Below are positions 12,901 through 60,691 of a stretch of DNA of 64,000 nt, one piece after another. The position numbers and the translations under genes are program-made. This stretch comes from Apostichopus japonicus. Its lineage: Eukaryota > Echinodermata > Holothuroidea > Aspidochirotida > Stichopodidae. Position 1 is the stretch's first letter. Every line of letters begins with the position of its first letter. The notes beneath the pieces were generated by a model, which did no database searches, was not told the origin of the DNA, and saw only the letters and a list, made by a program, of their open reading frames with translations. The DNA is taken from contig NC_092575.1 in the NCBI RefSeq assembly GCF_037975245.1, positions 2,485,001 to 2,549,000 on the forward strand. The letters are read 5' to 3'.

Positions 12901-14395
12901 CCATAAACCTTTTTTTTTGGTATTTGTCCATTGGAAAAATCTGATACGAGCTTTAGCAGAATCTGCGCTCGAAACAGGCGATAATTTTTCCTTCTAAAAA
13001 GCGTGACCATTAGATTATTCTCTTCTTGTTTGACCTGTTAAGACAAGCATTTTAACACCCAACATTTCTCTCTCTCCTTGTATTGTTTCAGTGTATCGGG
13101 AGGTATCATTCAGCCCAAATGCTGCTACACGGACTCTGCTTACAAGCTACACAAGACAGGGATCGAGATCAGCTACTCAAGTGTGAGTCTCTCCTTCCAT
13201 GAATTAAGGTTTCTTATTAAGTGATAGTTTTGGTTGCCCTCAGGGACTAGCCAGGGGGGAGCAGGGGGAGATATTTGTTTTTAGGCCACTGCCCATCTGG
13301 CTGTCTTACAAAATATGAAAGTTTATATTGTCCATCGGTTAAGTTCGTCAAATGTATTAAAGTTCAGACTTTGGACAATAAACAAGAATTTTCCTACTGG
13401 AAAAATTGTAAAGGAGCACTTTGTTTGTCCTCTGATATTATATGTAAAAGAACATGTAAAAGAATTCAAACAGGAAACAAAATCTGCTGTTAATATGATA
13501 TCATATGATAATGATGAAACTGGCAAAACATTGCACCAGATCGCATCTAAGGACCTTCGATTGTTCAAAAATATCTCAAAGGGAAGGGGGACCCCTCCCC
13601 TTAATCCCCTCCCCCATATCAATCGCAAATTGTGCTCCCCCCTTTCAAATTCCTGGCTACGTTGCTGGTTGCCCTTGTAACATCGGTGTATCTGTAGGAC
13701 GTGTCACATGTCTTTACCTTTCATTGCACAGATATCAAATATGAGCAAGTTTGAGTAATTACACATATATAAATATATCAGATTTTCTGTAATAGATTGT
13801 TGCCTATTATACTCATATAAATCTTGCTATTTTATATTTTGAAATACAACTTTTTAAGTCGCAATTTCAGTCTAGGTTCAAACCCCTGGTTGGTGTACGA
13901 CCAATACTCCAAGTATGCCACAAAGTTATATTTGTGGGGAAACAAAATTCAAACAATAATTTAAGATTTAACTTTAAAATAGCGTAATTTTGGCACAGAA
14001 TAACCATTTCCCCTCAATGATGGAAATAAATCAAATAAAGTAGTTCTCATATAAGTATAGCAGGTACATTTGGAATAATGTTTTCAATGAGAATTTTTTT
14101 TTTTACAGTGTTGTAAGGAATACACTTTTTGTTTTCTGAAAGAATTCAAATTTTGGCAAAAAGGGGCTGAAAAACCTCATTGATATAATGTAACCATTAG
14201 GCTACTACAAGTTTCGATTGGTTTCTCTTTTAAAAGAACATGTCTGAATCAGATTTGGAACTTGATCACTTTTCAATGCTTTGTTACATTTGTTTTGGTT
14301 ATATTCATACAGTGAAGAACATACTAGACCAGCGACTGATATTCCTAGAGAAGCAGGTTCACTCCACCACCACGGCCACGCCGTTTGCAACGTGA
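912..14395 (+). CDS. ULK1/2: ULK1/2 (ATG1) autophagy-initiating Ser/Thr kinase, 3' part of gene (15 exons)
   Basis: Exons by splice signals and continuous phase: 912-965, 1149-1375, 2004-2086, 2797-2916, 3311-3431, 4121-4205, 4773-4967, 7030-7136, 8103-8304, 8955-9148, 9838-10001, 10308-10426, 12381-12577, 13092-13182, 14313-14395 (TGA). About 680 residues are encoded here. The first exon encodes the end of the kinase domain (AFFNHPFL). A long Ser/Pro-rich linker follows, including a LIR-like FVLV after acidic residues, made where exons 1149-1375 and 2004-2086 join. From 9050 on comes the conserved C-terminal region (ITFEAPELVEETIMK, then the helices of the MIT/EAT domain), which in this family binds ATG13 and FIP200. 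The kinase catalytic domain and start lie upstream. With a usual N-terminal kinase of about 275 residues the protein would be close to the 1,050 of human ULK1. ULK1 and ULK2 cannot be told apart here; invertebrates often have one orthologue. An extra symmetric exon, especially in the 2-kb intron 4968-7029, cannot be excluded. Confidence 0.93.
3081..3124. repeat. GATT and TA microsatellites
   Basis: About six GATT units followed by TA repeats in an ULK intron. Confidence 0.9.
5891..5938. repeat. 16-base tandem repeat, three copies
   Basis: Unit AGATTGGATTATTCAA, in the ULK intron 4968-7029. Confidence 0.9.
7651..8025. repeat. Tandem repeat, about 113-base period, 3-4 copies
   Basis: GGTTAAGGAATGAGTGACTG-like starts at 7651, 7765, 7877 and 7991. 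It ends about 80 bases before ULK exon 8103-8304. Confidence 0.85.
10735..10812 (+). repeat. tRNA-like SINE head or tRNA pseudogene
   Basis: An A-box-like TAGCATAGCTGG (10742-10753) and a B-box-like GGATTCAAATCC (10790-10801) stand at tRNA spacing. No complete acceptor stem forms, so it is not a working tRNA gene. Confidence 0.55.
11081..11700 (+). repeat. Dispersed repeat with palindromic head
   Basis: The left edge (11081-11108) is a near-perfect palindrome, AGCTCATACCAGCA and TGCTGGTGTGAGCT. It is followed by CACTCTATC repeats and low-complexity GGTCAAAG/TTCATGAAACTTGG sequence typical of invertebrate dispersed repeats. It is in an ULK intron. Confidence 0.55.
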
Positions 14396-31300: not shown

Positions 31301-34300
31301 TGCCATGAAATTACTTCCAGCCTTCGTTTGTTGTGCCAAATTTGACATTTTATTATATAATTTAAGTTAGTGAGTATCTACCCCAAGGTGCCATGTGATG
31401 AGCCCTGTCATTAATTTAATTGTCATTGTGATGTAATATAGTAGCTTTCCTTATTTCTTTACCTTAGCATGCAAAATATAGGCAGTTCAACAAAGCAGAG
31501 ATGACCATTATGGAAGCATTGGAGTTCATGAACACTTTGATCGATGAAAGTGATCCTGATGTAAGTACGCCATAAAAAGAGAAAAAAAGAATCTATATTT
31601 CATATCATTCGCAGTCAGCACCATCATTTCTTAAACGATACTATCGTTTGTTGTAACTGCTTTATTATAATAATCTTGATTACAGGCAATTTTTATTCGA
31701 CATTGTGAACAGACATATCCACGTTCAGTTGTGATACTTATTTGCCATATGAAGCCCCTCGTTATCATTTACCAAGACATTTAATGGTATGAAGTTTCAA
31801 TGGTGAATCTGTTCCGATCCCTCAAGTCCCTGACCTTTGAAATTTGTGGATAATATCTGCAACGTTTATAAAATGGGTATTTTATTCACCTTTTCTTTTT
31901 TGTTACTTTTTTTTTTAAGTATGTAGTTAGTAAAAAATGTTTGGGACCATATCCTCCCCCCTCTCAAAAAATAAAATAAAAAAGAAAGAAAGAATATTAC
32001 AATATACAGATCTATCAAGGTCTACTAATTAAAAATTAAGCGACTTGAATATTGTCTGTGTTGCACCATCGAATGGCTTGTAGTTACTAAAACAAGGGCC
32101 ATTATCATATTACAATATTAGAAGCTTGTTATTTGGATGAAGGTATTGTTTGGTTAAACTTTTATGTTTATGTACATAACTTAGTCATCCCATACTTATC
32201 TCTTCGTATACATACTAGTCCTTCCTTCACAACCTGTGAACAGTTTTGCTCTGCTTTCGACAGAGTGTGCGACGCAAACCTAACTGTTTATTTCTGACCC
32301 ATTGGGCATTCCTGAGCTAGGTTAATTCAGTTTGACTTTATGGGGGGGGGAGGGGGGGGTTTGACTGTTTTGTATGTTTGGAACTACAAATTTTTGCACA
32401 CAACCTGTTTTCCTGCAAGAGCTGCAATCTTTATCCTTAAAGTAGCACCGGGTTTGCGGTTGGTTCTACCATATTGATAACATCGGTTTTATTTGCTTAG
32501 TGTTTTTGTTCTTATTGCTAGAATTAGGCTTGTTAGGCTTTACCTGTTCCTGTTTTTCACATTGTTAATTTGTCCAGATTCCAAAGACCTTAGAAGTCAT
32601 CCATTACCCATAGCAACTACTGCCATGTCCCCTTTCTCAAGTTGCCATACCATACCCTAAAATTATCTTGAGCAGGGCACAAAAAATTGCCTGAAATACT
32701 AGTGATGTTTGTGGCAGACAAACAGCTGATAAGTATGTATCAGGGTAGCATTAAAATCTAGAGGTACAGTTTGATCAACAACATCATGAAACATTCATGC
32801 TCCTTCAGAAAATGCTCTATCTTGTTCTGCACGGCTTAAATTTAAACAAACTTCTCAACACAGATTAAAGCCTCTTTAGAATGTGCCCCATTTCAGTAAA
32901 CACTGCAGAATAAGAAAATTGGAACAAACTTTGTTGTGATCAGGTGACTAATAAATTTTCTAAATAGTTTAAAAAAAAATGAAAAACAATGTTAGGCTGA
33001 TTGGTTTCATTCGGTCCATGTCGATTCATAAATTGACTTCTGTATAGATTCTGTGAAGTTGAAGAAATAACCTCTCAAAATTCAACCCTACTTGAGGCCT
33101 GACCTTTGATACAGTTCTGACAATAGGTACTTAACGAGTGTTTACACGGCTTATTTGTTCACTGTTTGAAGGTTAGGTTAATGTTTTCATTTGCCTGTTG
33201 ATATGTTTTATCTTATCATTTAATCTCTGCCTATCTCTGTTTTAGACCTCCTAAATTCTCTTCTATAGTAATATACCCTATTCAGAAGTAAAAATTGCAC
33301 AAATCTGGTTTTGTGTCCACACTTGATCGGTTACTATATTTTGGTATAGGGTAAGATATGTTACCCTGCTGAGTGATAACACAGCTGGGACATAGCAAGG
33401 AAAGTTGTACTTGATAAAAGCACAGTCAATAACCTATTTAAAATAAAGTTATCTTTGAAATTCCATTTTGACGTATGGTTAAAAACTCCTACATACAGTA
33501 TACAAGTGCTGCAGATGCAATTTCTGTTCGGGAACAGGCATCGTTAGACTGTGTACATTTCACGGCACGTTTCCCTCTATTAGTAAAGGCAGTCATAGAT
33601 AATAGTGCCAGAGCCCGCAGAGCTAGCGCTCGTTATGGTATCTGAGCCTTGTACAGTTGTACTCATGTCAAGGGGGAACCCTCCTTGTATTCATGTTTAT
33701 GTTGTTGTACCGGTACTACAAGTCTGGGTAGCACTGTCCTTTTCGTCCGTTTACAGGTCGATGTCCCTAACATCTATCATGCATTCCAGACCGCGGAGAG
33801 AATCCGGGAGCAGCACCCCGATCAGGACTGGTTCCATCTCGTCGGTTTAATCCATGACTTGGGAAAGGTCATGGCTATTTGGGGTGATCCACAGGTATTA
33901 AAATGAACCAACATCTGGTCTTGCACGAGTAAATATAAATAGCACCTCGTTCAATGAGACAGTTTATCGCTTCCTCTACTCACTTGTGTGCATAATCGGT
34001 TATTCGTACGTCCCCATATCCAACTGATTGGGAAAACACCTGTCCGGTGGTTATGGTATCGGGAATGCACGATACAATAATCGGCCTGCGTCCTGTGACC
34101 GGCTGTTTCCAAAAGTGCAAATAAGTGGTATTCCTATAGTTGGGATGAGAAACATTTCTAAACTTGATGAGAGAAGAAAAGTTCAATGAAGCAAGACAGA
34201 CCAAGATAGAAAAGCTGAATATTTCCATCATTTGATTATGATTTTCCTGCAGTCATGTTCTCTCCCCCCTCTCCCCCTCTGCCCCCTCTCCTCCTCTCCC

Positions 34301-42253: not shown

Positions 42254-43027
42254 CAAGGGCGGCGGAACGGGGGGGGGGCACAGGGGGCACGTGCCCCCCC
42301 ACTTTTCCTCAGATTAAAAATTTGCCCTTTTTCTACATAAAAATTTCTAAATAAAAAAGAGTTTACAAAGCGAAACCCACGTCGAATGAAATATTTCGGG
42401 AAGTTTTAAATGTTTACTACCACAGGCGTAGGAGCCCAATTTGATTTGGGGGGCTGTAACGACTTGCCCGAAAAATATTACCAAAATTTTTCGCGCGCTT
42501 CGCGCGCGTTCAACACGTTAATGTGCATATCATATAGGCATGCACCGGTTATTACATCGCATGCCTATAACATACAATCATTTGCCGTCTTATAACCCTT
42601 CTAAATTGGTTAGAATTATTGGCAAAGTCGTTACAATAATAATGATCATAATAATATCAGTTTAACCATTCAAAAACACATAGAAAATTACTTTTCTTTC
42701 AGTATTTTCACATATTTCATTTGCTTTCATGCATGTATCGATCGCGTGTGCAGGGACTTGGACTTTATAATGATTTCACCTCATTTTGTCTTTTTCCTTC
42801 TTTCCCAATTTGCACATTAGATACTGCAGTGCTAGTATGCATTGTTTCCTTGAGGGGGGGGGGGGGGGGGGTGGCGTTGATGGAGTGATGTGTATACGCA
42901 AATAAGATAATACAATAAGAGTTATAAAGGGTACTAAATATCAGGCTGCATCAGTCCAATCGAATTTCTGCAAAGTGCCCTTCGACGTTGGTGCCCCCCC
43001 AGATTGAAAGTGCTTCCGCCGCCCTTG
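42254..43027. mobile_element. hAT-type non-autonomous DNA transposon with 8-base target duplication
   Basis: Perfect 14-base terminal inverted repeats, CAAGGGCGGCGGAA and TTCCGCCGCCCTTG, are flanked on both sides by GAGCTCCA (42246-42253 and 43028-43035). The empty-site equivalent, GAGCGCCA, is at about 43347 in a paralogous segment. The interior carries a fragment of another GC-rich repeat from about 42422. Confidence 0.85.
42422..42560. repeat. GGCGTAGG-family fragment
   Basis: It carries AGGCGTAGGAGCC, CTGTAACGACTTGCCCGAAA and a CGCGCGCTTCGCGCGCG palindrome, as in 50960-51392. It is nested in the hAT element. Confidence 0.65.
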
Positions 43028-43521: not shown

Positions 43522-46500
43522 ATGGATGTCACTCTAATTGGATTCCTGTCGTTTTTCCTTCTTTGCGGAAATATTTTTCCAGGGAAAGGTGAGATATTTC
43601 CATCATTTTGGTTTCAGAATCAGCGACTTTTGATTACATTATTCTCAAACAGCAGCAAGTAAGGTATTACCGGCTTCTTGGTCATACATACCGTTCAGTG
43701 TGCAAGAGACAATACAAGTAGGGTCGTTCTTAGACAATGGCACTTAGCGAGAGAGATCTGGGGGCTGGGAACCGTTGCGCGGTCACTTAAGTGTCTGCAT
43801 GCAGTAGTTTTTGTGCTGATTTTCAAACCGTATAATACGTATTGAGAATATGAAATAGTTTATTCTTTCATTTCAATGTTGTGTTACGTATGTGTCTCAG
43901 ACGAAAGACATACGATTTAAACGTTCTCTGCTAAGAACACACAGTTAAAAATTAATGTTTTTTACGTTAGCGACTTCACTGAGCTGAGAGCTTGTCACTA
44001 TATTCTCATGAAAACGCTGTAAACATTTTTTATATAGACTCTCCCTGCAGACAGCGTGCTGCAGATGATAAGAATATATAATTGCATGTGTCTGAGTAAG
44101 GGGGGGGGTGGGGGGGTGAGCCATGAGGTGGTGTTACTGGTGTAAGATAAGAGAGGAGCATGGCAGAGTCAAGCAGCCGGCCCCTCGATGCGGACAAATA
44201 TATAAACCTCCTGTTTGTATTCCCAATTTTGTTGTCACCTATGAAATAAGATAAACTATTGTTTTTCCCATTTTCCCCGATCCCCCCTGTATCTTCCCGG
44301 GTCTCTAATTCATCCCGGGCCCAGGGACGGTATAGCTTCCTGATACTCTCGTACTAAGCGTAGGTTGGCATATGCCACCAGATACACACCCTCAGGTTAA
44401 GTACTTGACTGGTTTGTGTAGAAGGTAACAATGGTGGCTTCATACACAATGTTTCAAGAGCTACGTTACTGATGAATTGCTCCCACCCCCACCACCCCAT
44501 CTGCACCCCACACACACATTTTACCAGTTGTCATTAGCAATATTTGTGTTTACACCAAATAAGAAACACACTTCCTTATCATGTACAACTTTTCAATTTC
44601 TGTTTTTTTTTCTGTTGTCATTTAAAAACAAATTAATTTGTTTTGTTAAGGCATGGACGATTATATATATGGAGGACTAGCGAGCGTTCTTGCTCGTAAC
44701 TGCAAAAAGTGCACTGTAATGGTATTCCCCTGTTTGTTGGATTGGTTCAAATGGTTCATTCTAAATAAACTTGTGACAACAGTCTACATACATGTATACG
44801 CATAGGCGTATAGTAGCCCAATTTGACTTGGGAGGGGGGGGGGGGGCTGTAACGACTTGCCCGAAAAATATATCCAACATTTTTAGCATTCAACATGTTA
44901 ATGTGCATTTAGGCATGTATCGGTTATTACATCGCATGCCAATTACATACAATCATTTTCCGTGTTAATACCCTTCTATATTGGTTACAATATTTGGGCA
45001 AGTCGTTACAATATGATGATGATAATAATATCAGTTTAACCATTGAAAACACATTGCAATTTATTTTTCTTTCAGTAGGTGCCCGAAACTTTATATTAGG
45101 CTATGTACGGTCACAATGGTTACACTTGAGTGGGTGTCTATACATGGCTGCAACATATTTTTATAATTAGTAGGTCTATCTTCCAGTGTCAATATAAATT
45201 TATTGCGGAGGAATTTTAATACGTTTACGAGAAAAAACCCCAATCTATTCATTCGTTGATAGCGTGACTTTCTTGATTATTATATTTACATAAAAGCATA
45301 GCCTGTCTTAGTGTTCAGATTCTGCTTCTATAGCTTACAGAGTTAACTTTGCCAGTGTCTATATGCTTACCATTATAGAAAATTAACGGAGCAGTTAACC
45401 GCGTTCCTTGTGGGTAAATATTTTTTCCGCTTGAATTTTCCCCTTTTAATCTATCGACAATTTATGTCACAAAATAGGAGTGGACTGACATTGACAGTTA
45501 GTAGACGTAGATGTCAGAGAATTTTTTTGTTAGTTATAACGTTTTCTAACAGTGCATAACCATGATATATTACGTATGTACAACTTTATGGACCTGTATA
45601 TTTAGTTTTGCCCTCCCCCCCCTTTTTATTTTAAGTGAAACATTCAGATAGACTCCACTACCCAGTCGTTCATTTAGCAAAACATGTCAACTGTTTTCTT
45701 TTCTCTATAGAAAATTTAATTTTCTCGTTTTACTTTTGTAAGGGACCAGACTCAACAAGTTATCTTATACTTCTGGTCGCGCTGCCTCATTGTGATATCT
45801 TTGTATTTATTATTTTTTTATTAACTTTATTCGTAACCAGGGGTCCTGTCACTGGTAAACCAGTGTTCTCCCCAGGATCCCTGCACATATAAAACATACA
45901 AAATATAACAAATAGAACACATAAATAAATACAGAAAATAGATATAAAAAAATAAAAAATAAAAAATAAAAAATAAAAAATAAAAAATAAAAAAATATAT
46001 ATATATAAAAATAAAAATCTAATTCGATTTCAAAGCCAGGCCATTTCTAATTGCACATTTTAGTTTATTTTTAAAGGTATCAGTGTTATTGCACATACGA
46101 ATATGCCGAGGCAGTGCATTCCATTGATTAACCCCATGGCAAGTTTGACGACGTCTCCCCCAAATAGTGTTGGAATATGGAAGGCAGAAACCACCAGAGG
46201 TAGAAGCTCTTGTGGCAGATTCACTCGAGGAGACATGGGCATACTTGTCACAGAGATAGTCAGGAGCAGCTGCTATGTGGATTTTATGCATAAAAACCTG
46301 ACGGTGATAATTCCATCTTTGCTCTATAGGGATCCAGGATAGAGCTGAGAGAACATCAGCTGTAGGTGCAGTCCTAGGAAGATCTAGAATAATCCGACCA
46401 GCTCTTCCTTGCAGAGATACCAGACACTTTTTATACTTGGCACAGGTGTTAGACCAGGTACAACTAGCATAATCAAAGTGGGGGCTTATCAAACTATTGT

Positions 46501-49500
46501 ACACCATAATCCTGTATTTGTGTGGAAGATACTTCTTAACCCTCCCAAGTATCCCAAGACGGCAGGATATTTTCTTGCAAATCATAGATAAATGGTCTTT
46601 GAAAGTTAAGGTACTGTCCAAAAGCACCCCAAGGTACCTAAAAACATGAACCTGTTCTATATCATGTGAGTCATAATGGAGAATGAGAGGGTCAGCTCTC
46701 TTCATCATGGTTGGTGTGCCAAAAAGCATACTTTTGGTCTTTTTTACATTCAAAGTCAATTTGTTTTTGACCAGCCACTTGCCAATCAGAATAAGATCTG
46801 TAGAGAGAACCTGCTGTATTTCACATATTTTCTCAGAGCTATAAATAACAGCTGTGTCATCTGCATATAAAATTGCCTGGCTTTCACTTGTGGCAGATGG
46901 AAGATCATTTATGTATATAGGTAATAGTAATGGCCCAATGATAGATCCCTGTGGAACGCCAAATGCAATTCCCATCATATCTGAATACTGGTTCTCAATC
47001 TGAACAATTTGGTATCTGCCCGCAAGATAAGAGCCGAACCAATCCAATGCAGAGTCAACAACTCCATATGACCGAAGTTTGTCAAGCAAGATGTCATGAT
47101 CAACTGTATCAAAAGCTTTTTTAAAGTCAAGGAACAAGATGCCAGTGTAGTTCTTTCTTCCACAGGCACCGTCCATGTTTGACAAAATATCATCAACCAC
47201 ATAGCTGAGAGCCGTAGTAGTGGAGTAACCAGGTCTGAAGCCTGATTGCCATTTGTTAAGGATCTTGTTACTAGTTAGATACTGATACAGTTGATCATGA
47301 ACAACTCTTTCCAAGATTTTTGACACAACTGGCAGAACTGAAATAGGTCTATAATTGTCGACCTGACCGCGTGTCCCATCTTTGAAAACTGGTGAGACCT
47401 TGGCAGTCTTCCAGTCAGAAGGGAAAACCCCATGAGAGAGTGTATGAACAAATGTATATCATTGCGGTATATTGGCAGAAATAAACGAAAAGAAACTGTT
47501 CATTTTGAGTTGGTTATATTTTATAATTTCGTATTTATTCACACAAGACAACACACCCACACACACAAATGATTCATAAGAAACTGCACTCCGTTTTTAG
47601 TGAATTCAATCACATTTGTGTCTTACAAAGTTAGAAAAGCACTAGCTACTGTTTTCAGTGGGCGGCGGAAGTATATTGAATCTCCGGGGAAGAGATGGGG
47701 GTGGGGGTGGGGTGAGCGGGGGGGGGGGGACGAGTGGAACACGAACCTTATGAAGTAGTGTGTTTTGGTTTTGATGGGGTACAACGTTACCTTGAAACAT
47801 TACCGTATGAAGAAAGCACAGCAAATATGCACTTATAATTTACCAACAGAGGAACTTTTCAACCACGAGTACGTTAAAAAAAAAAAATTACAGCACTCAC
47901 TCATTAACAAACAGGGACCATTCTTCTGTTTTGAAAAGAAAAGATAGGAGAAGAGGTCACGCACCCCACCAACGTACCCCGTAACGTACCCCGCCAACGT
48001 ACCCCGCCAACGTACCCCGCATGTACCCCTCAACGTACCCCGCCAACGTACCCCGCCAACGTACCCCGCCAACGTAACAGTGTCACGGTAGCCCATGGAT
48101 TTACAATCCACACTTTCCCGCTCATTATAATCACTGACGGACCAAGGTATAAACACATCGGTGCACGGAATGATTAAAACACATTTCCTCCTTTTGTTCA
48201 GCTTCAGATCAAACGTTGACCAGTTCCTCCGGTACATTCTCTACACCATCTTATCCTATTCCCTATGAACCTAATTTGACTTGTACATGGCATCTGGTGG
48301 CTCCTATCGGCATGTCAATCGAGCTCATATTCGATGTCGTTGATCTTCAAGATCAAAATGGCGAACGCGTTGTCTTGATACGATAGAGGTAATGAATATT
48401 TATTTTTACACTACTACTAATGAATATTTATATTTACACTACTCATTAATGAATATGTATATTTACACTAATACTATTTTGTTTTCCACTGTCCTTTCAT
48501 AAAGACAAAAAGCAATTGAGTATGTCCTGATTTTTTTCTTGTGTGTGGTTGGGGGGGGGGGGTTGTGTGGGTTGGGGGAGGGGGTGGGGAAAGGGTGCGG
48601 GATGAGAGACATAAACGATTCCAAAACGTATTGGGGTCGCTGAAATAGTTGGAGAATGATTCACATAGTGGATGATGTTAAAGTTGCAAAAAAGGACAAT
48701 GTTGTCCAACTGTATCAGCCACTTCATTTCTAGTATGCTGTTTAGGCTTGGAATTCATACTTTTTCTGAAAATATGGATGTACCAGTAAAAAAGAAGCAT
48801 TGCTGATGACCGTGTACTATGCGCGTCTGATCTCACAAAGTTGGACAAAACTCTTCGGGAGCTGAATCATCGATATAACATGAAAAATGACAAATCAATT
48901 CCATTTACTTTTATCAGGTTTTTGATGGACCACCTGGATCTTCTGCGCTCACATTTCCATTTTGTGGAGATGGACCAATATGGCCGCAACATCCGATTCG
49001 ATTCCTTTCTTCGTCTAATCAGTTATCGGTGACCATTAAAACTGATAGCATTGATAACGGAATGGGGTTTCAAGCTCGTTATACACATGGTAAGAATAAT
49101 TATATAACCGACATAATCGTATGCATTGATTCATAATACGCTTAAGAGACCTACATAGATATATGATATAGTCGAGGATATAGACATGTAAAAATGAACC
49201 TTGAGACATTTTTGTCGTCATGCAGATAATCGACACACCAAGTTTGGCAATTGTTTTTAAACCGTAATTTGATGACATGCTTCAAAGCACATGATACTGT
49301 TAGCATGAATATCTTGTAACTGTTAGATAAAGCATAGGAACTTGTTCATGCTGCCAGTACTAGTGCTTCATAGCACATGATACTGTTAGCATGAATATCT
49401 TGTTATAAGATAAAGTATAGGAACTTGTTCATGCTGCCAGTACTAGTGCTGCAGAGCACATGGTACTGTTAGCATGAATATTTTGTTACTGTAAGATAAA

Positions 49501-52500
49501 GCATATGAACTTATTCATGCTGCCAGTACTAGTGCTTCATAGCACATGATACTGTTAGCATGAATATCTTGTTATAAGATAAAGTATAGGAACTTGTTCA
49601 TGCTGCCAGTACTAGTGCTTCATAGCACATGGCACTGTTAGCATGAATATATTGTAACTGTTAGATAAAGCATATGAACTTGTTCATACTGCCAGTCTGA
49701 GGCCTACTAGTGCTTCAAAGCACATGATATTGTTAGCATGAATATCTTGTTACTGTTAGATAAAGCATATGAACTTGTTCATGCTGTCAGTACTAGTGCT
49801 TCATAGCACATGGCACTGTTAGCATGAATATATTGTAACTGTTAGATAAAGCATATGAACTTGTTCATACTGCCAGTCTGAGGCCTACTAGTGCTTCAAA
49901 GCACATGATATTGTTAGCATGAATATCTTGTAACTGTTAGATAAAGCATATGAACTTGTTCATACTGCCAGTCTGAGGCCTACTAGTGCTTCAAAGCACA
50001 TGATACTGTTAGCATGAATATCTTGTTATAAGATAAAGTATAGGAACTTGTTCATGCTGCCAGTACTAGTGCTTCATAGCACATGATACTGTAAGCATGA
50101 ATATCTTGTTACTGTTAGATAAAGCATAGGAACTTGTTCCCGCTGCCAGTACTAGTGCTTCGAATCATTGTATGAAAGGACAGTATAGATTGGTATATAT
50201 TAGCTTTAGAGAATCTTCCGGCTGGCTGAATCTATATCATATCTACAGGTGCGTATCCAGGGGGGGGGGTGTTGGGGGCGCGCGCCCCCCGGGTAAGGAA
50301 AAGAGGAGAGAAAAAAAAGAGAAGAAAAAAGGGAAAAGGAGGGGAAAAAAGAAAAGGAGGAGAGGAAGGAAGGGAAAAGAAAAAGAAAAAAGAGAGAAAA
50401 AGGAGAAAAGGAGGGAGTAGAAGATAGCCAAGACCTCGGGAAGAGAAAGATCCCTATTATATACACAGGGTAGCCAGTGACAGATCAAGGATTACGGAGG
50501 GGGTGTGCGCCTCACCCTACCCCTTACCCCGACAACTCCATTTTTGACGTTTCCGTTTTTCCTCTCTCACTAATGTACTTGAACTCGACCGAGTCGTCGG
50601 GGAACATAACGCATTTCGGGAAGGGGGCGACCGCCCCCCCCCCGAGCAAATTTTCTTTATGACATCGCTAGTAATTTCAAAATAGACAATGCTTAGATGC
50701 AACTTACAAGGCCTGGGAAGTGTCATTTCCAGCGATCTGGGAGGCATTTTCGGCCAAAATTTTTCTTGTACGCTTCGCGCCAACTCATGGTGGCGCTTCG
50801 CTTAGATAGTTTGCCTACAGGCTTCGCCCTCCCTTGGCAATTACTCGCTACACGCCTGTTCGAATTTGTAAAGCAAAGAGCAGATATAACATCATATCAA
50901 TGAGCATTGAAATGCATGTTCCACGATGTACAGCCTCAAAAACTGTCAATGTGTGTAGTCAAAGGCGTAGGAGCCAGATTGGATTTGGGGGCTGTAATGA
51001 CTTGCCCGAAAAAAAAGCCAAAATTTTTCGCGCGCAAAGCGCGCATTCAACATGTCGATGCCAATAACATATAGGCAAGATCGCTCATTACATTGTATGG
51101 CATCGTGTACCGCACGGTCCGTCAAAGTTGCACAGTATACCGCCGGATGCTAATGTAAACAACCAAATGTCTTATGTAGATGGAGAAAAACCATACAGAT
51201 CCATTTATGTCAAAACTCTCTTTTACAGTAGTAATGTCGGCCAAGCTTACAACTTTATTTCAATTACCAAGGAGATCATTTTAAGCTATTCATTGCTATT
51301 TATTTTTCTTTCAGTAGGTGCCCAAAAAAAATGGGAAAACAATTGGGGGGGGGGGGCTGCAGCCCCCGCCTCCTACGGGACCTACGCCTATGAGTGAAGT
51401 GTTCGGTTTCGATATACCTCATATCGGAAATATCTCCTATTTTTCTGTTCCTTCAACCAAGTTTTGTAAAAGCCATTATAAGAGGTTGCAATATTTCTAC
51501 ACCAAGAAATTAACTGTGTCGGAATTTTCCAAAATCTCCTCACCAACATTCTTCATCATACTTTCCTCTACTCGTTCAATTTTGACCTGTCTGTTAGGGG
51601 TTCAAGGAGGTTTTTCTATATTGGTTGTCTATAGATTGAATTTTCTGCAACATTATGGCTATGTTTTCAAGTGATTTTATTCACGAGAAAAGTCAATTTT
51701 CAAATTCTCAACAAGTAATGGCTTAAAACCTTGAAAAGTCGGGCTTTCGGATATTGTGGGCCGTGACGTAGAATAACCTACAAAAGCAATGATCCATAGG
51801 ACATGCAATCAGGTCGAACATGATGTGTGACTGGTGACAATCTTCAAAAAGGTTATGAATGGAAAAAACTTTTGGGAAATACTTGGTTCTCAGGCAAAAG
51901 TGTACATCTGGTTGCTCATTTTCAAGCCCGAGAAGTGCCATTTCCGGTGATCTGGGGGGGTATCAAAACCAAAAATTTTCTTGTACGCTCCGCGCCAACC
52001 GATGGTGGCGCTCCGCTTAGATAGTAATTCGCGCCCCCCGGGTTAGAAAATCCTGGATACGCGCCTGATCTATATCATATCTTTATCATGAATATTCATT
52101 TGCTCCTTTATAGATCTTTATATCGTCACAATAATGCAAAATGCTTTTAAACATTTTGTTTCAACTTGAATTATCTTTACAGTTCAACCAAGAACCGAGT
52201 ACATTGCAGCGATTGGTGTAGAGAGCACGGATATTATACAGTTCACCAGATTTAGTGTACATATTCCTCGACAGCCGCTAGCAGTCTCGACTCGTCCATC
52301 AGCTTTGACCTTTGACCACATCAGTGATTTCTTCTATTACACGGATACACAAGAGAAGTTCATTGCTCGAGTTCATATTGGTGGTAGCAGCTCTTCAGAC
52401 ATTTTGATAACAGATGCCGTCGACAGTAAGTTCAATTGGTACCATTTTTTTCTATGTTTGGGTAATGTCATGTCCCACTTCCGAGCACTCGTATTGACAG

Positions 52501-55500
52501 TACGAGCAGTATGGATATTATGTTGCTATCAGGTAAAGGTTAAGAACTGTTTGTACTGTCAATACGAGTGCTTTGAAGCATGATGTGGTAGGAGAGTTTA
52601 GAGAGGTATTAGCATTAGGAAATTGTCCCAACTGGCTACTTTGGGTAAATCTTGTCGGTTAAGAAACGGGCAACCATAAATAAATGACAAAGTGCGCCCT
52701 CCACTTTACAATGACTCCTGTTTTACCCAAAACAGTACCCTATGAAATTAACGCGAGAAGATTTGTGTGGAGGAGTGACAGAAGAGGCAGATTGGGGAGT
52801 AAGGAAAGATGGAAACATTAGAATTGTATTAGTAAAACGAAAAGACTATAGTAGTCCTCTCCGAAAATGTGTGACGACGAGGTATATCTTTATTTTATAA
52901 TGATCCATTTACATTCATAACTAGCTGAAGTCACTATCCTGTAAATGTGTATATGTTATTCATAGACTTCTTTCCACCCACGCTGATAGCTTAAGCCAGA
53001 TTCCCTCTTTTCGCGTTTACCGCGGACAATGAAACTTCACCAAGCGAAACGCCATCAGCTATTCAGAGGTGTTCTTTTCTATCGAACAATGATATAATCT
53101 ACATGCTATTACCAGCTTATATACAATGAAAGGTCATGTGATTATTCGTCTGGCCTTTTGTTCTTCAAGAAACAAAGAGGAACAATAATAAACTTTGCGA
53201 ATTCGCATTCATAAAGGTGTAACGTCATTAATTCACACAGATCCGCTGGGTATCGCTGCCGCTTACCTAACAGGTTTGCTGTACTGGACTGATGCTGGTC
53301 GCGATGAAGTGTCTGTATCTCGACTGGATGGATCCTTCCGAAAAACTTTGGTTCCTTCAAATTCTGGTTGTGCTTTTCCCAAAGCCATTGTTCTAAGTCT
53401 GGATCATCAGTAAGTATATGCAGTTGTTGATTTGGTGATTTATTTATTCATTTACTTTTTTTTTTAAAAGGTGAGGACAATACTGATGTTCAATGATCAT
53501 AGACGTAAGAGCCTAATTTGATTGGGGGTTGGGTGGGGGGGGGGGGGCTGTAACGATTTGCCCGAAAAATATAACCAAAATTTTTCGCGCGGTTCACGCG
53601 CGTTCAACATCTTATTGTGCATATCATACAGGCATTCATCAGTTATTACATCAGATGCCAATTACCGGCATGAGACGTTTCTTTGTGCGCGAGTCTTCAC
53701 ACCCTTTAATAAAATTCTTCTTTAAATCTTTACTTGTCTTGTCTAGACATGTGTTTTGGAGTTGCAGTGATCGGATCGAGACATGCAAAGCAGATGGGTC
53801 AGAAAGAGAGGTGTTCCTTGACCAACTAGGAAACGTGAAGTCATTGGCTATCGATGTAGAAGGTAATAAACATGATTTCAAAGTACTTTATACCGGGGTA
53901 ACTCAAGGTTTCGACATGGTATAGTTTGTTTAACAGTATTCTAGGTGCAGTGACAATTGCTTAGCTGTAATAAGCCATGCTACGGTGACTGTTCTCTCAC
54001 TTGTATATTCTTGCCTACTAAATGATGTTACTAAAATGAATTATAACAACAAGGTTTCGTAACGAACCTTTTCCCTTCTTTTTAACTATTTTATTTTTAC
54101 TCTTTTCTTATTGTTGTGGAAATATACTCAAACTTAATTGTGTCGGATGTTACTGAAGCAAACGTTTGAAGTAATGCAGTCTGACATCTCAAAAAAAAAG
54201 ACTCCTATAAAAATGAAGGAATTCAACCAACGTTGCATAACATAATGGTATTCTGGTGTGTTCGGTCTCCAACACCAAAAGTACTTATTTAACCAGTGCT
54301 ACGAAACCTAAGATTGAGGTTGTAGGTTAGATGGCCAAAGAAAGGTTGGGTGTTCATCGAGAATATAGCCTATCCACGGTTTCCCCATATGACATGTCTT
54401 CCAAATTGTAAATAAGTGTAAGTAATAAATAAGCCATTCGGCTTTCTCCCACATACATATTTATATGAGACTGCTTATTGACGTCGTAAAATAACTGCCT
54501 ACCAGCACGATATTTGATATGTCGATAATTTTAAATATTTAACAATTTTTGCATACGTATATGTTATCCTTAAATTTGTGGAACCATGTAATCTACCATG
54601 ATAGAAGTACACATTTTTGTTTATATTAAATAGTATTTTTGTGATTAATTATAGGTCAGACCCTATACTGGGTGAGTTCTACTGGACACGGCGGTGTTGT
54701 CGAAGAGATTAGCTTGGACGGTTCTGGTCGCAATGTAATATTTCAGGCAGCTTTTCTCTCTAAAATTCATGATTTTGTGGTGGATAGTTTTGCGTTCTTC
54801 TGGTCAGTCCCGAGTGAAGAACGTCTATATCACAATGTGAGAGATGGTACCCTTGACGCAATAAGACTCGCTGAACCACGGCCAAGTCTGGAAGGATTGT
54901 ATTACTATAAATCAGATGAAGTCATACCAGGTAAGTCAGTGGCGTAGGAAGGTACTTTTGAGTGGGGGGGGGGGGCTGAAGACTGATGGCCGGCCTGGGG
55001 GAGGGGTCTAAGGGCAGGGGGTGTCCCCCTCCCCTTTGGATTTTTTTTGCATTTCCAGGTGGCCTCAGATGCAATTTGCTGCAATATAGCACACTTCAAC
55101 ACCCAATCCAATTTGTAAATAATTTTGCATTTTCACCTGGCCTTATAGATGCAATTTGGTGCTCCAAATGAGATTTTTTTCTCATTTGGAAATGAAAAAG
55201 GGGTTTTCTGACTCGCGGAGTGGGGGGGTGGGGCGGAATGATACTTCCGCCCCCCATATTTTTCACTGGGGGGCTGGCGCCCCCCAGCCCCCCGGTTCCT
55301 ACGCCCTTGAGGTAAGTATCAAAACATTCACCCGTTAATTGTTTCAAGCACAAGATCACAAAATATAAATTGCTAGAAAACAACTAAGGGTAGACTCCTG
55401 GACACATTGGAATGTGCTTTATTCTCAGTTAAGGTAACGTGGCCCGACGTTTTCTTTTAACCGATGTTATATGTTATGTTATATTGTCTATGTGTATTCT

Positions 55501-58500
55501 TCATTAACAGCCCAACACCAATGTGCCATCGACAATGGGGGTTGTGAAGAGTTATGCTTGCCCGATCAGAACACGTTTACATGTAACCAAGGTTTGACCC
55601 ATATTTTTATGTCACTTCTCTCTCAAAACTATGGTAAATAAATATGACCACCGTGATGGACAGTTTCTTTTCGCTTGTACATACAGTGACATAAATTTAA
55701 TTTGTGAGAAACATCTTTAAATTTGGTCTTAATTTAATTACTTATCGTCAATATATATCGACATGTTGTTTTTTTTTCGCTTCAATGTTATTATTTGTTG
55801 TTTATCGTTTATCGAAAGGTAACACAATGTTGTAGAACATTTTCAATATCTGGTTTGATATTCTTGCAAACATCAGAGTTTGATTAAAATTCAAGAATCA
55901 CGCTGACACAACAATACCACCTGACAACGATTACAGGAATTTATTCTGTGTTTCAGCGACAGATATTTATCAAAATAAAACGTATATGATATGAATAAAT
56001 ATATAAAATAAAATAACAATACAATACAAAATAGAATGGAATGGAATGGAATGATATCAAATAAAGAGAATAAATCCTAACTGCATGCCCGAATCTTGCT
56101 AGTATAATTGTTACGTTGGAATGCGAGAGGTCTCGATAATTAATTTTAACGAGACACAAGCCTGGGTTCGTTTCCGTAAGGAACACAGACAAATTGACGA
56201 GTTAGAGATTTTAAACGAGAACGTAAACTATATTGAACAATGGATTTCGAACCAACAACAACAAGTGGTAATTACAAATAAATAGAAAATTACTCACAAA
56301 CTTAACAAGATCGGATACACTTTAAAACACGCTGGTCTCTTCCAACGGCGATATCCAGCGGCCACGACCTCGATGACGACGATTCTCGGTCCGTTGTACC
56401 GCGAAATTCACTGGTCCTCGACGAAGTTTCTCGCGATCCCAGAAACAGCAGTCACCTTCTTTCCGGCGATGCTCCAAAATAGAAGACGGACTTCCAGCCA
56501 CAATCGAGTGAAGCACAAGTCGAACTTCTCGCCGACTAAATATTACCAGAGTCAGTCCAAATCAGCTTTATAGCCACCAACTCCTGGCGTAACGAACTTC
56601 CTCAACGGAGACAGAAATTCTTCACCTTCTCCGAAATAAAGCCTGAAAAACTGTACTTTCACAGCAAAGTCCTCTTCAAACTTCTGAATGGAAGTGTAGA
56701 ATCAATCTTGTTATCGATATCTCAATCCTTCAGAAACTACTGGCAGTTGAGCACTGACGATATATAGTAGAATGGTATAATATGTGTCGTCACTTGTATT
56801 CGTACAGAAACTGAGAAACTCTCCGATCTGGGCGGGTTTATATACGATTCGCCATGTCAAGAATCATCTAGATCTCTCTCGATACACCTGAGTAACAACG
56901 CGACCCGGTTTCTCTATTCTTGGAAGTCCTTTGCATCGCTCGCGAATATTCCAGAGAATCCACGAAGATGTGTACAGCTTACACGCGATCTCACGTAAAC
57001 CGACGTCAACCCGAGACCAGCGCGTCATCATGAGGAATATACTAGAACAATCGTGTATTATAACATTCTGACACGGTAACCCGACCTAATTTCTCAAATA
57101 CTGATTTATCACGTAGGCAATTTCAATACTTTCTATATTATAACATTAGGTTCTTTACTAGCAGTGACTAGCGTTAGGCTACAATGGGCCCTCGTAACAT
57201 AATGAATCCATTTATTGTGTTTGTGAAACACCAGTTGATCTACAACAGACATGTTATTTTGAAGAGGCACTGTGCCTTAACATGCAGCTCTTTCACAATA
57301 CGTGTTCAAAATGTACTTAATGTTAGTTTGTTCTTAGTTACATGTTCATTAAATCATTATGATTTTGTGCTTTCTTTTAGTGACACCTGTAATCTCAAAT
57401 TGCTCTCAAGATATTGTAATGTTCACCACTGGACCACAAAGAGTCTTATGGGAAGACCCTACTGCAACTAGCTCAAGCAATGGCCCAGTGCTGATGGACC
57501 TACCTTACAGAAGTCGATCACACGACCCAGGAACACTCTTCATTTGGGGTACCACGAAAGTGACTTATGTTTTCTCTGATGATTTTGGCAACGAAGCAGA
57601 GTGTTCCTTTAACATCGTGCTGTCGGAGATCATAACGATAGGTTAATATTAACATTTATGATTGTGTCACTTTAATCATGATAAAACACAGTGATTAGCA
57701 GAAAAAACAATTTATGTTCTGTTGAATTGCCATATTAGGTATTCTTGCAAAAGGTCATCAGTATTGCCACCACCATAATAAACATTCACAGCAAGCTTAG
57801 CAGACATTTCCCAGTCAGGTTGTGAGGCTAAAGGGTGACAGTGACCATTCACATCAAGCTAAGCAGACAGTTCCCAGTCAGGTTATGAGGCTAAAGGGTG
57901 ACAGTGACCATTCACATCAAGCTAAGCAGACATTTCCCAGTCAAGTTGTGAGGCTAAGGGTGACAAGTAAACATTCACAGCAAGCTAAGCAGATATTTCC
58001 CAGTCGGGCTGTGAGGCTAAGGGGTGACAGAGAACATTCACATCAAGCTAAGCAGACATTTCCCAGTCAGGTTGTGAGGCTAAGGGTGACAAGTAAACAT
58101 TCACACCAATCTTAGCAGACATTTCCCAGTCAGGTTGTGAGGCTAAAGGGTGACGGTGAACATTCACATCAAGCTAAGCAGATATTTCCCAGTCAAGTTG
58201 TGAGGCTAAGGACGGTGACAGTGAACGGTTTGCTGAAGTTTTAAGTAGAGAAATCATCTGCTTTTCTAGCATACAGGATATGTGAATGGGGGGGGGGGGG
58301 AGAGGTTGAACTACGGTTAATATGCTTTCTGCTTACACAAATGCATAATATAATTTTCTAAGTAATGAAATGAACCTATATATTATACCTCCAGGTTCTC
58401 ACAAAAACATACATATGCAATGTGATGAGCTATTCAAAATTTACGTCTCACTTTTGACGATTCCTTCCTGGTAATGATGTCTCTCTCTCTTTCCCGGTTT

Positions 58501-59676
58501 ATTCAAGATCCACCGGTGATCTCAAATTGTCCTGAAGACATTAAGAAGACTACAAGTGGACCATTGGCTGTCTTTTGGCAGGAACCGACCGCGGTCAGTT
58601 CTATCAACGGACAAACACCGGTTGATGTACCCTTTCATGTGCGTTCGCACAAGCCTGGATCAGTTTTCTCTTTGGGTACAACAATTGTTACTTACTTGTT
58701 CTTGGACGAGGGTAACAATGCCGCTCATTGTTCCTTTAATGTGATTCTCTCGCAGCTAACGACTGCAGGTAAGTTATGGTTTAAAAAGATAATTTGAAAG
58801 TGATAGACTTTGAAACAACAGTTAGGGAACTTTAGATTAGATGAATGAATTAATTGTTCGACTGCAGGGCAAGAACACCAATGTCAAACTGTTTTCCAAT
58901 AACCAAAACACATTTCAACAACGGAGATTTACCAACCCTGAATGTTTTGCTAAAGATCGCCTCGTAAGATAACAAGAATGTAACTCGTTTTAATAAGTCA
59001 CATTTTCTAAGTTACACATGCTTGCAAGGAAATGGCTTGACTTGTTGCTCAGATGATCGCCTGTAAATAACCGATACTGATCGTAATTCTAACTTTAACC
59101 TCATCCAGCTCAATGTTAAGAGACTCGGCACTGTTACTCACGGGACGAGTAATATTGTAGTGCGCGTGCGCGCTACAATTTTGGCATTTTTGCCAAGAGA
59201 ACGATACCTACATGACTGCACGTTGAAACTTTAAGTTTCACATAGTCTCTGTATACTTGCAGTTTCAGAAGCCAGCTGTGTATGCAACTTATTCTGAGCT
59301 TGTCACGGCGCCCTCACGTTGTCGTTCCACCTCGTTTCACCTCGGGTTTTTACCATTCTAATCGGTGGGAATTAGTGACAGATAGCATAGAATACCAGGG
59401 CTGTGGCCGAGTGGATAAAGGCGGTGGCAATTGGGGGCTTAGGGCATCGGGAGGTTCCGGGTTCGATACCCGGCCGGGTCATAGTAAGGTGGGGTTTTCA
59501 TCCAAGAGCAATCTACGGTTTTCCCATCTGAAATGACTTCTTAAATAGAAAAGATCCAAAATTTGAGTTGAAATGTTGAATTGGAAGCCACCCAGCGTGT
59601 AAGTTGTAATCCATAAGCCCTTGCGGAATATGCTCTCACATTTGTGGTAGCTTAAGCGTCGTATAAATAACTGCTG

Positions 59677-59708
<32 letters not shown>

Positions 59709-60691
59709 CATCATCATTTCTGCTGCCAGTTTCTTTACTACTTGGTTTGTGTCCTCTACCCTACAGCTGAACTGACACAGGTGATACATATGCCGCGTGT
59801 TCGTGTGTATTGTTCAACTTTGGTTGAGTGTTACATATCGTGTCCCTTGGACTTCCCTTGTTTAAACTGAAATTCCTTTCAGTTTAGGACCGTTGTAGAT
59901 GATCTCCTATAGTTTTAACTGCAAATAGTCTAGCCTCTTGTTTATCTATTTGCTATATGAGGCTGCTAATTAGTTTACTTTCAATAGCGATCAACAACAT
60001 ATAAAAATGATTTTTTTTTTTTTTGGGGCTAGTCATCCTTTTAAGTAAATGTGCCTAACGTGTGCGCGTTCCTTGGTTATCAATAAGTGTGGAACAATGT
60101 CACACTTGTTGAGAATAATATCTAGAATACAACAGAAGTATATAAGTACCGTATAAATGGTTAATTAATTAATTGTAATTTATGAAATTAAATCTGCAGA
60201 GTTAATGGGGGATGTGCTCTTCGACCGATATAGAGCTGTTACCCTTTTTGCCCCCCCCCCCCCCCACACACACACACTTGGTTTTAGTTCTTAAAGAGAG
60301 AAATAAACTGCACAGGTTATTATAGCTATTATTATTTTATTTTATTTTTTTACTATGATTTATCTTGAAATTATTCATTTTCTTGTTCACAGGTTCGATA
60401 GAGGTGGAAACATCAACCGCATCTCAATCATCGTCGTTTGATATCGAGAAGTTATTTACCGAATACCTGGTTTACACCGTTATCGGTATCGCCTTTATCG
60501 CGGTTATTCTACTTTTGATGATTATCACTTGCATAGCATGTTGCTGTGGATGTTTGAAGTGTACCTCTGCCTCCAGAGATGACGAACGTAGTGTTGAGCA
60601 GCACGATATGGCGGCCATGAATTACCATGACAACGGAAATTATGATTACGCACTTTATGAGAAGTCGGTGCCTCCCTATACTCCACGTTAA
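43522..60691 (+). CDS. Type I membrane receptor: signal peptide, CUB, six-bladed YWTD propeller, EGF-like, two HYR domains, TM
   Basis: Exons: 43522-43588, 48208-48368 (donor uncertain), 48918-49089, 52183-52425, 53241-53409, 53747-53862, 54655-54930, 55511-55591, 57381-57641, 58508-58768, 60393-60691 (TAA). The model gives about 701 residues. Order: hydrophobic signal peptide (about 1-20); CUB (about 27-133, with SYPIPYEPNLTCTW and VFDGPPG); propeller (134-401) with blade motifs FYYTD, LYWTD, VFWSC, LYWVS, FFWSV and LYYYK; EGF-like (402-428, four Cys); HYR1 and HYR2 (429-515, 516-602), each starting PVISNC; transmembrane helix (about 627-650), then a Cys-rich juxtamembrane segment and a short tail ending PPYTPR. 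The CUB halves meet at a phase-0 junction. Nearly all other introns are phase 1, as in shuffled extracellular modules. It is a cell-surface protein with a probable adhesion or ligand-binding role. I do not recognise an orthologue. Confidence 0.85.
44803..45100. repeat. GGCGTAGG-family fragment
   Basis: It starts CATAGGCGTATAGTAGCCC and continues through the same interior to TTTCAGTAGGTGCCC, but lacks the right end. Confidence 0.65.
45810..46018 (-). repeat. 3' UTR and tail of the LINE copy
   Basis: Read on the minus strand, the RT stop is followed by T-rich sequence containing a six-base A5T-type microsatellite (45950-46008 on +). A short hairpin (CTGGTTTACCAG) and ACGAATAAAGTTAATAAA at the end follow. 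Position and orientation fit the LINE 3' UTR and polyadenylated tail. Confidence 0.6.
46019..47460 (-). mobile_element. 5'-truncated CR1/L2-like non-LTR retrotransposon (reverse transcriptase)
   Basis: One open frame reads from about 47460 down to a stop at 46019, about 480 residues. It starts abruptly inside the RT domain (FPSDWKTAKVSPVFKDG) and shows ordered RT motifs: RPISVLPVVSKILE, FRPGYSTTTAL, LFLDFKKAFDTVDHDILL, GVPQGSIIGPLL and the catalytic YADD. A C-terminal RT thumb region follows (HKYRIMVYNSLISPHFDYA). The endonuclease and ORF1 are missing, as expected for a 5'-truncated LINE copy. It sits antisense in the first intron of the CUB/YWTD/HYR gene. The intact frame suggests recent insertion. 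CR1/L2 assignment is from motif style; a related Jockey-superfamily clade is possible. Confidence 0.88.
47964..48077. repeat. 12-13-base minisatellite CCAACGTACCCCG
   Basis: About nine units, 130 bases before the first CUB exon. Confidence 0.9.
48388..48480. repeat. Tandem repeat TAATGAATATTTATATTTACAC
   Basis: Three units of about 30 bases starting at the possible donor after the first CUB exon. Confidence 0.75.
49275..50165. repeat. Minisatellite of about 86-110-base units, ten copies, with two unit types
   Basis: AGCACATGATACTGTTAGCA starts each unit. Some units carry an extra TCTGAGGCCTACTAG segment or lack part of the TAACTGTTAGATAAAG block. It lies in the intron 49090-52182. Confidence 0.9.
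50246..52067. mobile_element. Nested cluster of GC-rich TIR elements
   Basis: Outer ends are CAGGTGCGTATCCAGG and CCTGGATACGCGCCTG, an imperfect inverted pair. ATCTATATCATATCT flanks both sides and may be target duplication. Inside are a purine-rich tract (50300-50420), the 50960-51392 element, and two related segments (50700-50860, 51935-52020) sharing TTTTCTTGTACGCT and TGGTGGCGCT. Confidence 0.55.
50960..51392. mobile_element. GC-rich non-autonomous TIR element (GGCGTAGG family)
   Basis: It begins CAAAGGCGTAGG and ends CCTACGCCTATG. Flanking octamers TGTGTAGT and AGTGAAGT match at 6 of 8 positions, a possible decayed target duplication. The interior GGGGGCTGTAATGACTTGCC and the TTTTTCGCGCGC segment recur at 42422, 44803 and 53500. 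Confidence 0.65.
52484..52572. repeat. Perfect 20-base inverted repeat (hairpin)
   Basis: Arms AGCACTCGTATTGACAGTAC (52484-52503) and its exact complement (52553-52572), with a 49-base loop, 58 bases into an intron. Confidence 0.85.
53500..53659. repeat. GGCGTAGG-family fragment
   Basis: It starts CATAGACGTAAGAGCC, has a G tract and then CTGTAACGATTTGCCCGAAA. It is followed directly by the TTAA MITE fragment. Confidence 0.65.
53660..53709. mobile_element. TTAA MITE right-end fragment
   Basis: The sequence ATTACCGGCATGAGACGTTT through CACACCCTTTAA matches the right end of the three full copies. It lies 37 bases before a receptor exon. Confidence 0.7.
54937..55309. mobile_element. hAT-type MITE inserted in a splice donor
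   Basis: Termini CAGTGGCGTAGGAA and TTCCTACGCCCTTG are inverted (12 of 14 matching). They are flanked by an exact 8-base duplication, AGGTAAGT, at 54929-54936 and 55310-55317. The left copy is the donor of the exon ending at 54930. The interior is GC-rich near the ends and non-coding. Confidence 0.85.
56109..57199 (-). mobile_element. Solo LTR of an LTR retrotransposon
   Basis: The 1,091-base block begins TGTTACG and ends CGTAACA, flanked by TAAT on both sides (56105-56108 and 57200-57203). Read on the minus strand it starts TGTTACGAGG and has a TATATAAA box about 350 bases in (about 56840-56848), followed by a plausible transcript start region. No internal gag-pol is present. It lies in the intron between the EGF and first HYR exons. 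Confidence 0.65.
57779..58230. repeat. 62-base minisatellite, seven copies
   Basis: The unit contains CATTTCCCAGTCAGGTTGTG and AGGCTAAGGGTGACA. It lies between the two HYR exons. A 97-codon open frame in it is an effect of the period. Confidence 0.92.
59396..59715 (+). repeat. tRNA-derived SINE
   Basis: A tRNA-Leu/Ser-like head has an A box (TGGCCGAGTGG, 59404-59414) and a B box (GGTTCGATACC, 59460-59470). A non-tRNA body and a tail GTATAAATAACTGCTG followed by ATT repeats follow. It is in the last intron of the receptor gene. Confidence 0.82.

Follow-up and report, generated by a model that had tools for sequence, protein, structure and literature searches.

In a probable gene of the sea cucumber Apostichopus japonicus, the 8 bases that join a predicted exon to its intron occur twice, once on either side of a transposable element. 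This locus raises three questions: how the gene came to have two 5′ splice sites (donors) where a single one would be expected, which of the two would be used, and whether the element was drawn to such a site or landed there by accident. We consider it likely that a recent insertion of a MITE duplicated the donor, that the upstream copy, donor 1, is the one mainly used, with the protein kept, and that the choice of site reflects chance followed by survival.

Structure of the host gene and of the insertion

We refer to the whole stretch of DNA that was analyzed, 64,000 bases of contig NC_092575.1, as the window. The modeled part of the host gene comprises eight exons. Their boundaries were picked by eye from lists of AG and GT dinucleotides, and the gene model is accordingly a prediction from sequence. 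The features of interest are the following:

52183-60691, + strand: host gene, modeled part, eight exons; one open frame across the joined exons (predicted)
54655-54930, + strand: exon D (predicted), 276 nt with phase 1 at either end; the frame stays open when the exons are joined
54929-54936, + strand: target-site duplication, left copy, AGGTAAGT; AG at 54929-54930 is the end of exon D, GTAAGT at 54931-54936 is donor 1
54937-55309, + strand: hAT-type MITE, 373 bp, delimited by its ends and by sister copies
54937-54950, + strand: left terminal inverted repeat, CAGTGGCGTAGGAA; exact in 35 of the 39 other copies among the best matches
54945-54947, + strand: TAG, first of seven in-frame stops in the exon that donor 2 would produce, 364 nt upstream of the end of that exon
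55039-55058, + strand: acceptor-like site GATTTTTTTTGCATTTCCAG in the element, score 5.42 (predicted)
55296-55309, - strand: right terminal inverted repeat, 12 of 14 bases matching the left one; exact in 36 of the 39 other copies among the best matches
55310-55317, + strand: target-site duplication, right copy, AGGTAAGT; donor 2 at 55312
55511-55591, + strand: exon E, start of an EGF-like domain; 3′ end uncertain, with a weak donor and the domain cut short

The gene model contains an LDL-receptor class B repeat (Pfam, 2.5e-10), and two stretches of HYR (Pfam, 3.4e-26); an EGF-like match (Pfam FXa_inhibition, 0.00078) is weak and falls short of the cut-off. The two halves of a CUB domain are matched by two upstream exons (Pfam), and the last exon, read by eye, encodes a hydrophobic membrane segment. 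When the predicted donor at 54931 is joined to 55511, the frame is kept into the start of the EGF-like domain. Because the donor of exon D lies within the first AGGTAAGT and the 54930-55511 join keeps the frame, we conclude that the insertion sits exactly across the predicted exon end of this gene. Skipping of exon D would likewise keep the frame in the gene model. Donor scores range from 3.2 to 7.0 in exons A, B, C, E and F (E 3.8, F 3.2), and exon G has a donor scoring 12.72; given the weak donors of exons E and F and the shortened EGF-like domain, an exon may be missing after E. A search of the same genome, in its one assembly, for a second or empty copy of exon D returned one candidate, which was exon D itself.

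Several other features were observed in the window. Upstream of the CUB exons, an open frame of 479 aa that includes a reverse transcriptase domain (RVT_1, 1.1e-35) lies at 46019-47458 on the - strand. Self-comparison revealed tandem arrays in the introns of the gene, at 49278-50167 (unit of about 85 bases) and 57783-58226 (unit of about 63 bases). A myo-inositol oxygenase match (33646-33903, 2.1e-17) and a weak ATG1-like MIT2 domain match below the cut-off (12314-12592, 0.0034) probably belong to neighboring genes. Within the window, Rfam gave no match at the gathering threshold, and ARAGORN gave no tRNA or tmRNA gene.

The two copies of AGGTAAGT (54929-54936 and 55310-55317) are perfect, and 373 bases lie between them. 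The ends of this element, CAGTGGCGTAGGAA and TTCCTACGCCCTTG, are 14 bases each and form inverted repeats that agree at 12 of 14 positions. Its G+C content is 53%, versus 38% for the window, and translation of the predicted extended exon D meets stops in every forward frame of the element. A preliminary description of the locus had proposed a hAT-type insertion whose 8-base target duplication consists of the exon end plus the donor. The duplication is indeed perfect on both sides, at the predicted exon end, and the hAT assignment is borne out by its length, by the inverted ends and by the duplications around sister copies. Terminal inverted repeats of hAT elements measure 5 to 27 bp (PMC3517528); those of the window copy fall within this range and are common to its sister copies. 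The element is also short, non-coding and, with 2,677 exact left ends in the genome, high in copy number, as MITEs are. Thus, the segment 54937-55309 is a young non-coding hAT-type MITE.

An abundant family with 8-bp target-site duplications

The genome searched comprises 35 contigs with a total of 671,581,487 bases. An exact match to the first 31 bases of the element is found in it 2,677 times (1,293 + 1,384), and the reversed control sequence does not occur at all. In a DNA search with the complete element, the best 40 of 2,570 candidates were scored; all of these span the whole element, and the 39 other than the window copy are 93-97% identical to it. No sister copy with different termini, the kind of result that would have spoken against the preliminary description, was seen among these 40, and the exact 14-base ends recur in most of them, as listed above. 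Over 371 aligned bases, the window copy has 5 differences from the consensus of the 40 copies and, in addition, 2 gaps; the median divergence of the 40 copies from this consensus is 1.6%, both figures being based on copies chosen for their likeness to the window copy.

Duplications flank most of these copies. Among the 39 other best matches, the flanking 8 bases agree at 8 of 8 positions in 34 cases, at 7 in four and at 3 in one. Two pairs within this set (L009/L039 and L034/L036) have common flanks and are therefore not independent insertions. Because the 39 had been selected for likeness to the window copy, we examined a second sample, namely the 40 copies that come first in the list for contig C1. 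Of these 40 consecutive copies, 31 have a perfect duplication, two agree at 7 of 8 positions and one at 6 of 8; four agree at 4 positions or fewer, and two are without a recognizable right end. Two of the low-scoring copies (L062 and L063) are the halves of one composite. That the AGGTAAGT flanks and the element in the window reflect coincidence or an assembly error has, in our judgment, a practically negligible probability, since flanking duplication is the rule in this family and the same ends are common to 2,677 places. The one observation on the side of coincidence or error is that no empty allele was seen in the assembly.

More distant relatives were observed in the window itself. An old relative of the left part of the element (76% over 92 columns, left end CAGCAACGTAGCCAGGAATTT) lies at 13530-13616 on the - strand. 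A different hAT-like element occupies 50960-51392, with ends CAAAGGCGTAGGAG and CCTACGCCTATG and flanking 8-mers TGTGTAGT and AGTGAAGT that match at 6 of 8 positions; relatives of its left end are found at 42421, 44801 and 53498.

Matches to the hAT dimerization domain are present in the genome (best 150 of 633 candidates scored). In 11 of 12 composites examined, a 103-aa fragment of this domain lies between two copies of the element, and the twelfth (L129) is rearranged. Leaving L129 out, the composites (L122-L128 and L130-L133, on contigs C1, C6, C8, C12, C16, C20 and C22) consist of two full or nearly full element copies around 2.15 or 2.5 kb. Their outer 8 bases are duplicated perfectly in 10 cases and at 7 of 8 positions in L133, and the outer flanks are common to all 11, which indicates a single move, as a unit, into a larger repeat. 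To judge from these shared flanks, the larger repeat then appears to have spread with the composite inside it. Neither the dimerization-domain loci scored nor the composites examined yielded an autonomous element bounded by a single pair of these ends.

Target-site preference and the question of donor targeting

The target preference of the family was derived from 63 distinct perfect duplications, drawn from the 39 best matches and the C1 sample. These sites have a mild preference for T at position 2 (26 sites) and for A at position 7 (31 sites). The target consensus of the Ac family is nTnnnnAn, and 14 of the 63 sites conform to it, as against 9.6% of the 8-mers in the window; that is, the pattern is a preference, not a rule. 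For TcBuster, the target consensus given in PMC3499496 is nnnTAnnn, and a third hAT group, Tip, is named in PMC3942097. The nnnTAnnn pattern fits 8 of the 63 sites, against a background of 8.0% of window 8-mers, and membership of the Buster family is not indicated by this measure. The same figures lend no support to the idea that a TA-centered preference makes donors favored targets, AGGTAAGT itself having a central TA.

Could the family nonetheless seek out splice donors? The insertion in the window lies exactly on one, and another sister copy, L135 (G000:C15:28759850), inserted in antisense, is flanked by a duplicated GTAAGTAG that follows tttctttcag plus 22 bases. This good-looking acceptor suggests that L135 is possibly a second donor insertion, at a putative microexon. 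The counts, however, argue against targeting. A sense GTAAGT within the duplication is found once in the genome, in the window copy, whereas 1.8 would be expected for 2,677 copies; in antisense, it is found three times versus 2.4 expected. These expectations derive from the family's own site composition, and, as the pattern counted needs just 16 element bases, the underlying copy number may be somewhat greater than 2,677. In two of the antisense cases (L134 and L136) there is no clear exon before the site. The more specific pattern AGGTRAGT followed by the element has a single occurrence genome-wide, at 54929. A second estimate, based on the 19,828 genes reported in PMC10344927 and on the assumption that a gene has 6 to 10 introns, yields 1.4 to 2.4 insertions that duplicate a whole donor. 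Moreover, AGGTAAGT agrees poorly with the sites that the family uses, because few of them score as low (6 of 63 score no higher than the -1.39 of AGGTAAGT) and most 8-mers of the window score as high (63% reach or exceed this value). We therefore regard a donor-seeking family as extremely improbable. With one sense GTAAGT duplication versus 1.8 expected, the counts suggest that targeting need not be invoked, and that chance and survival would suffice to explain the position.

Two donors that are alike but not equivalent

The ancestral donor, reconstructed by joining the flanks of the element, reads CAG followed by GTAAGTAT and is complementary at every position to the 11 bases of U1 with which it was compared. 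After the insertion, donor 1 reads CAG followed by GTAAGTCA, and donor 2 reads GAG followed by GTAAGTAT. The preliminary description had placed identical donors before and after the element. Both sites are there and both are strong by score; the identity holds over the 8 duplicated bases and ends beyond them, so the two are not equivalent. The matrix score is 12.72 for the empty site, 12.72 for donor 1 and 11.69 for donor 2, and only 6 of the 4,061 GTs on the + strand of the window reach 11.6, both donors included. The modeled energies of U1 pairing are -14.0, -12.1 and -12.6, respectively.

The consequences of the choice differ. Donor 1 yields an exon of 276 nt; the protein is unchanged in the gene model, as had been proposed. 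Donor 2 yields an exon of 657 nt, whose 381-nt extension is a multiple of three and contains an in-frame TAG at 54945-54947, where a stop had been predicted. A stop well before the exon end, with later introns following, is the usual trigger of nonsense-mediated decay. Here, 364 nt separate this TAG from the end of the extended exon, and further introns come after it, so that the RNA is more likely to be degraded than to give rise to a secreted protein. The proposal of a truncated, possibly secreted isoform is retained in its first part, the early stop; a stable secreted product of donor 2 use would, by the decay rule, be unlikely.

We also modeled the accessibility of the two donors by RNA folding. 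The probability of being unpaired is greater for donor 2 than for donor 1, at 0.63 vs 0.36 with 100-base flanks and 0.72 vs 0.40 with 400-base flanks; the remaining partition-function foldings give 0.53 vs 0.47 and 0.59 vs 0.37. In the single best structure, part of donor 2 is paired. We set folding aside as a guide to donor choice, as the openness varies with the stretch folded and the best structure disagrees with the pairing probabilities.

If donor 2 were used frequently, exon D would extend to 55311, the product would be a truncated protein or, more probably, an RNA that is degraded, and the output of the gene would be lowered. Several properties of donor 2 are consistent with such use: its high score, its U1 pairing, a modeled openness at least as great as that of donor 1, and its proximity to the next acceptor; the 381-nt extension, with its first stop 364 nt before the exon end, would account for the loss of output. 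Donor 1, in turn, has the higher score on the 9-base signal and defines the shorter exon. G-runs downstream of a donor are said to help that donor, and the element places such runs after donor 1 (12 G at +34). On balance, we consider frequent use of donor 2 unlikely. Donor 1 is most likely the preferred site, a choice that the reading frame, the 9-base score, the exon length and the G-runs would all favor; the slightly better U1 pairing, the modeled openness and the acceptor proximity of donor 2 would weigh slightly the other way.

An acceptor-like site within the element

The preliminary description did not include a further feature of the element, the acceptor-like site GATTTTTTTTGCATTTCCAG. 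Its score of 5.42 exceeds those of seven of the eight acceptors in the gene model, and 31 of the 39 other copies among the best matches contain a match to its motif. Together with donor 2, which is strong, this site would bound a predicted cassette exon of 253 nt (55059-55311), with a stop at 55169. In such a case donor 1 would be spliced to the GATTTTTTTTGCATTTCCAG acceptor and donor 2 to exon E, and 55059-55311 would sometimes be included. The score is less distinctive than it may seem, however: among the 3,682 AGs that the + strand of the window contains, 62 reach this value, that is, 61 besides GATTTTTTTTGCATTTCCAG itself, and all acceptor scores are rough. The stop at 55169 would also make the RNA short-lived. 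Hence, inclusion of the element as a cassette exon seems to us distinctly unlikely. We are just as doubtful of the broader proposal, built on the same predicted sites, that one insertion made a three-way switch, with donor 1 giving the protein, donor 2 an extended exon, and the element a cassette exon.

The second AGGTAAGT might also act as a recursive splice site, the element being removed first (54931-55311), CAG followed by GTAAGTAT being restored, and the remainder of the intron being removed later. By construction, the site has the form AG/GTAAGT, in which an acceptor is joined to a donor as at the ratchet points described in PMC8605326, and a branch-like TTCAC is found at 55262. Such splicing would be hard to see, because the resulting mRNA would be the same as that from donor 1. 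As an acceptor, though, the second AGGTAAGT scores -2.74, less than any of the eight acceptors in the gene model, and 41% of the AGs in the window are as good. This weak acceptor disfavors recursive splicing, which we regard as very improbable.

Discussion

Our preferred reading of the locus, in which the MITE insertion duplicated the donor and donor 1 remains in use, can be set out as a sequence of steps. A non-autonomous hAT-type MITE would have entered AGGTAAGT, the 8 bases joining exon D to its intron, fairly recently. The staggered cut and its repair copied AGGTAAGT to both sides, and it is because of this duplication that each side now has a strong 5′ splice site. The duplication step is shown by the sequence of the locus and by the duplications around other copies. 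Most transcripts would then most likely use donor 1, in which case the intron's first 381 bases consist of the element and donor 2, with no change to the protein. Low-level use of donor 2 is possible and would produce an early-stop RNA that is probably degraded. An insertion of this kind would be tolerated because the duplication contains the whole donor, and the landing on a donor would be a matter of chance and survival, this being one of thousands of insertions.

Comparable systems are known. Mar of Drosophila is a hAT-superfamily MITE with sites of the form nnnTAnnn, of the Buster type, according to PMC3517528; as described there, it resembles the present element in being short, non-coding and high in copy number, with 8-bp duplications and short inverted repeats that begin with CAG, but differs in its target sites, the A. 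japonicus element having nnnTAnnn in 8 of 63 sites versus the 8.0% background. In some introner families, the 5′ splice site is supplied by the target duplication and the mRNA is unchanged (Gozashti et al. 2022, PMC9860276). The present insertion resembles these in the origin of its splice site; however, introners create a new intron within an exon, whereas here, if donor 1 is used, an existing intron was lengthened at its start. The element landed at the donor of the intron that ends exon D, and we do not class it among the introners, which create an intron where none existed. Its likeness to the ratchet points of PMC8605326 lies in the acceptor AG adjoining a donor GT, although the acceptor at the second AGGTAAGT is poor. 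Spliceosomal twin introns of type D1,2 likewise involve an intron nested at the donor of another intron, but those described in PMC12403724 show no target duplication, unlike the A. japonicus element. In the potato RdRp gene (PMC4974935), intron gain also came from a duplication that yields splice sites; that duplication is a tandem genomic one, and the present one is a transposon target duplication at an existing donor.

A hAT element that duplicates an existing donor was not encountered in the literature searched, whose coverage leaves out most subscription journals. Older maize work reportedly placed Ds and dSpm at splice sites, which would be close to the present case. As far as the literature was searched, then, the locus is new, and the kind of event is already known from introners and hAT MITEs. 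For an element present in thousands of copies, the insertion is a tidy but unremarkable accident, and it constitutes no new kind of system.

If the cassette exon were used, it would be a newly arisen exon that owes its donor to the target duplication, and the same could happen with each of the thousands of sister copies if it landed in the sense orientation on a donor. More generally, an 8-bp duplication just suffices to span the entire donor signal, which suggests why such insertions can be tolerated on donors. The locus is also a natural experiment, in that two donors of recent common origin, identical over 8 bases and 381 bases apart, are present in one gene and allow the choice between related splice sites to be measured.
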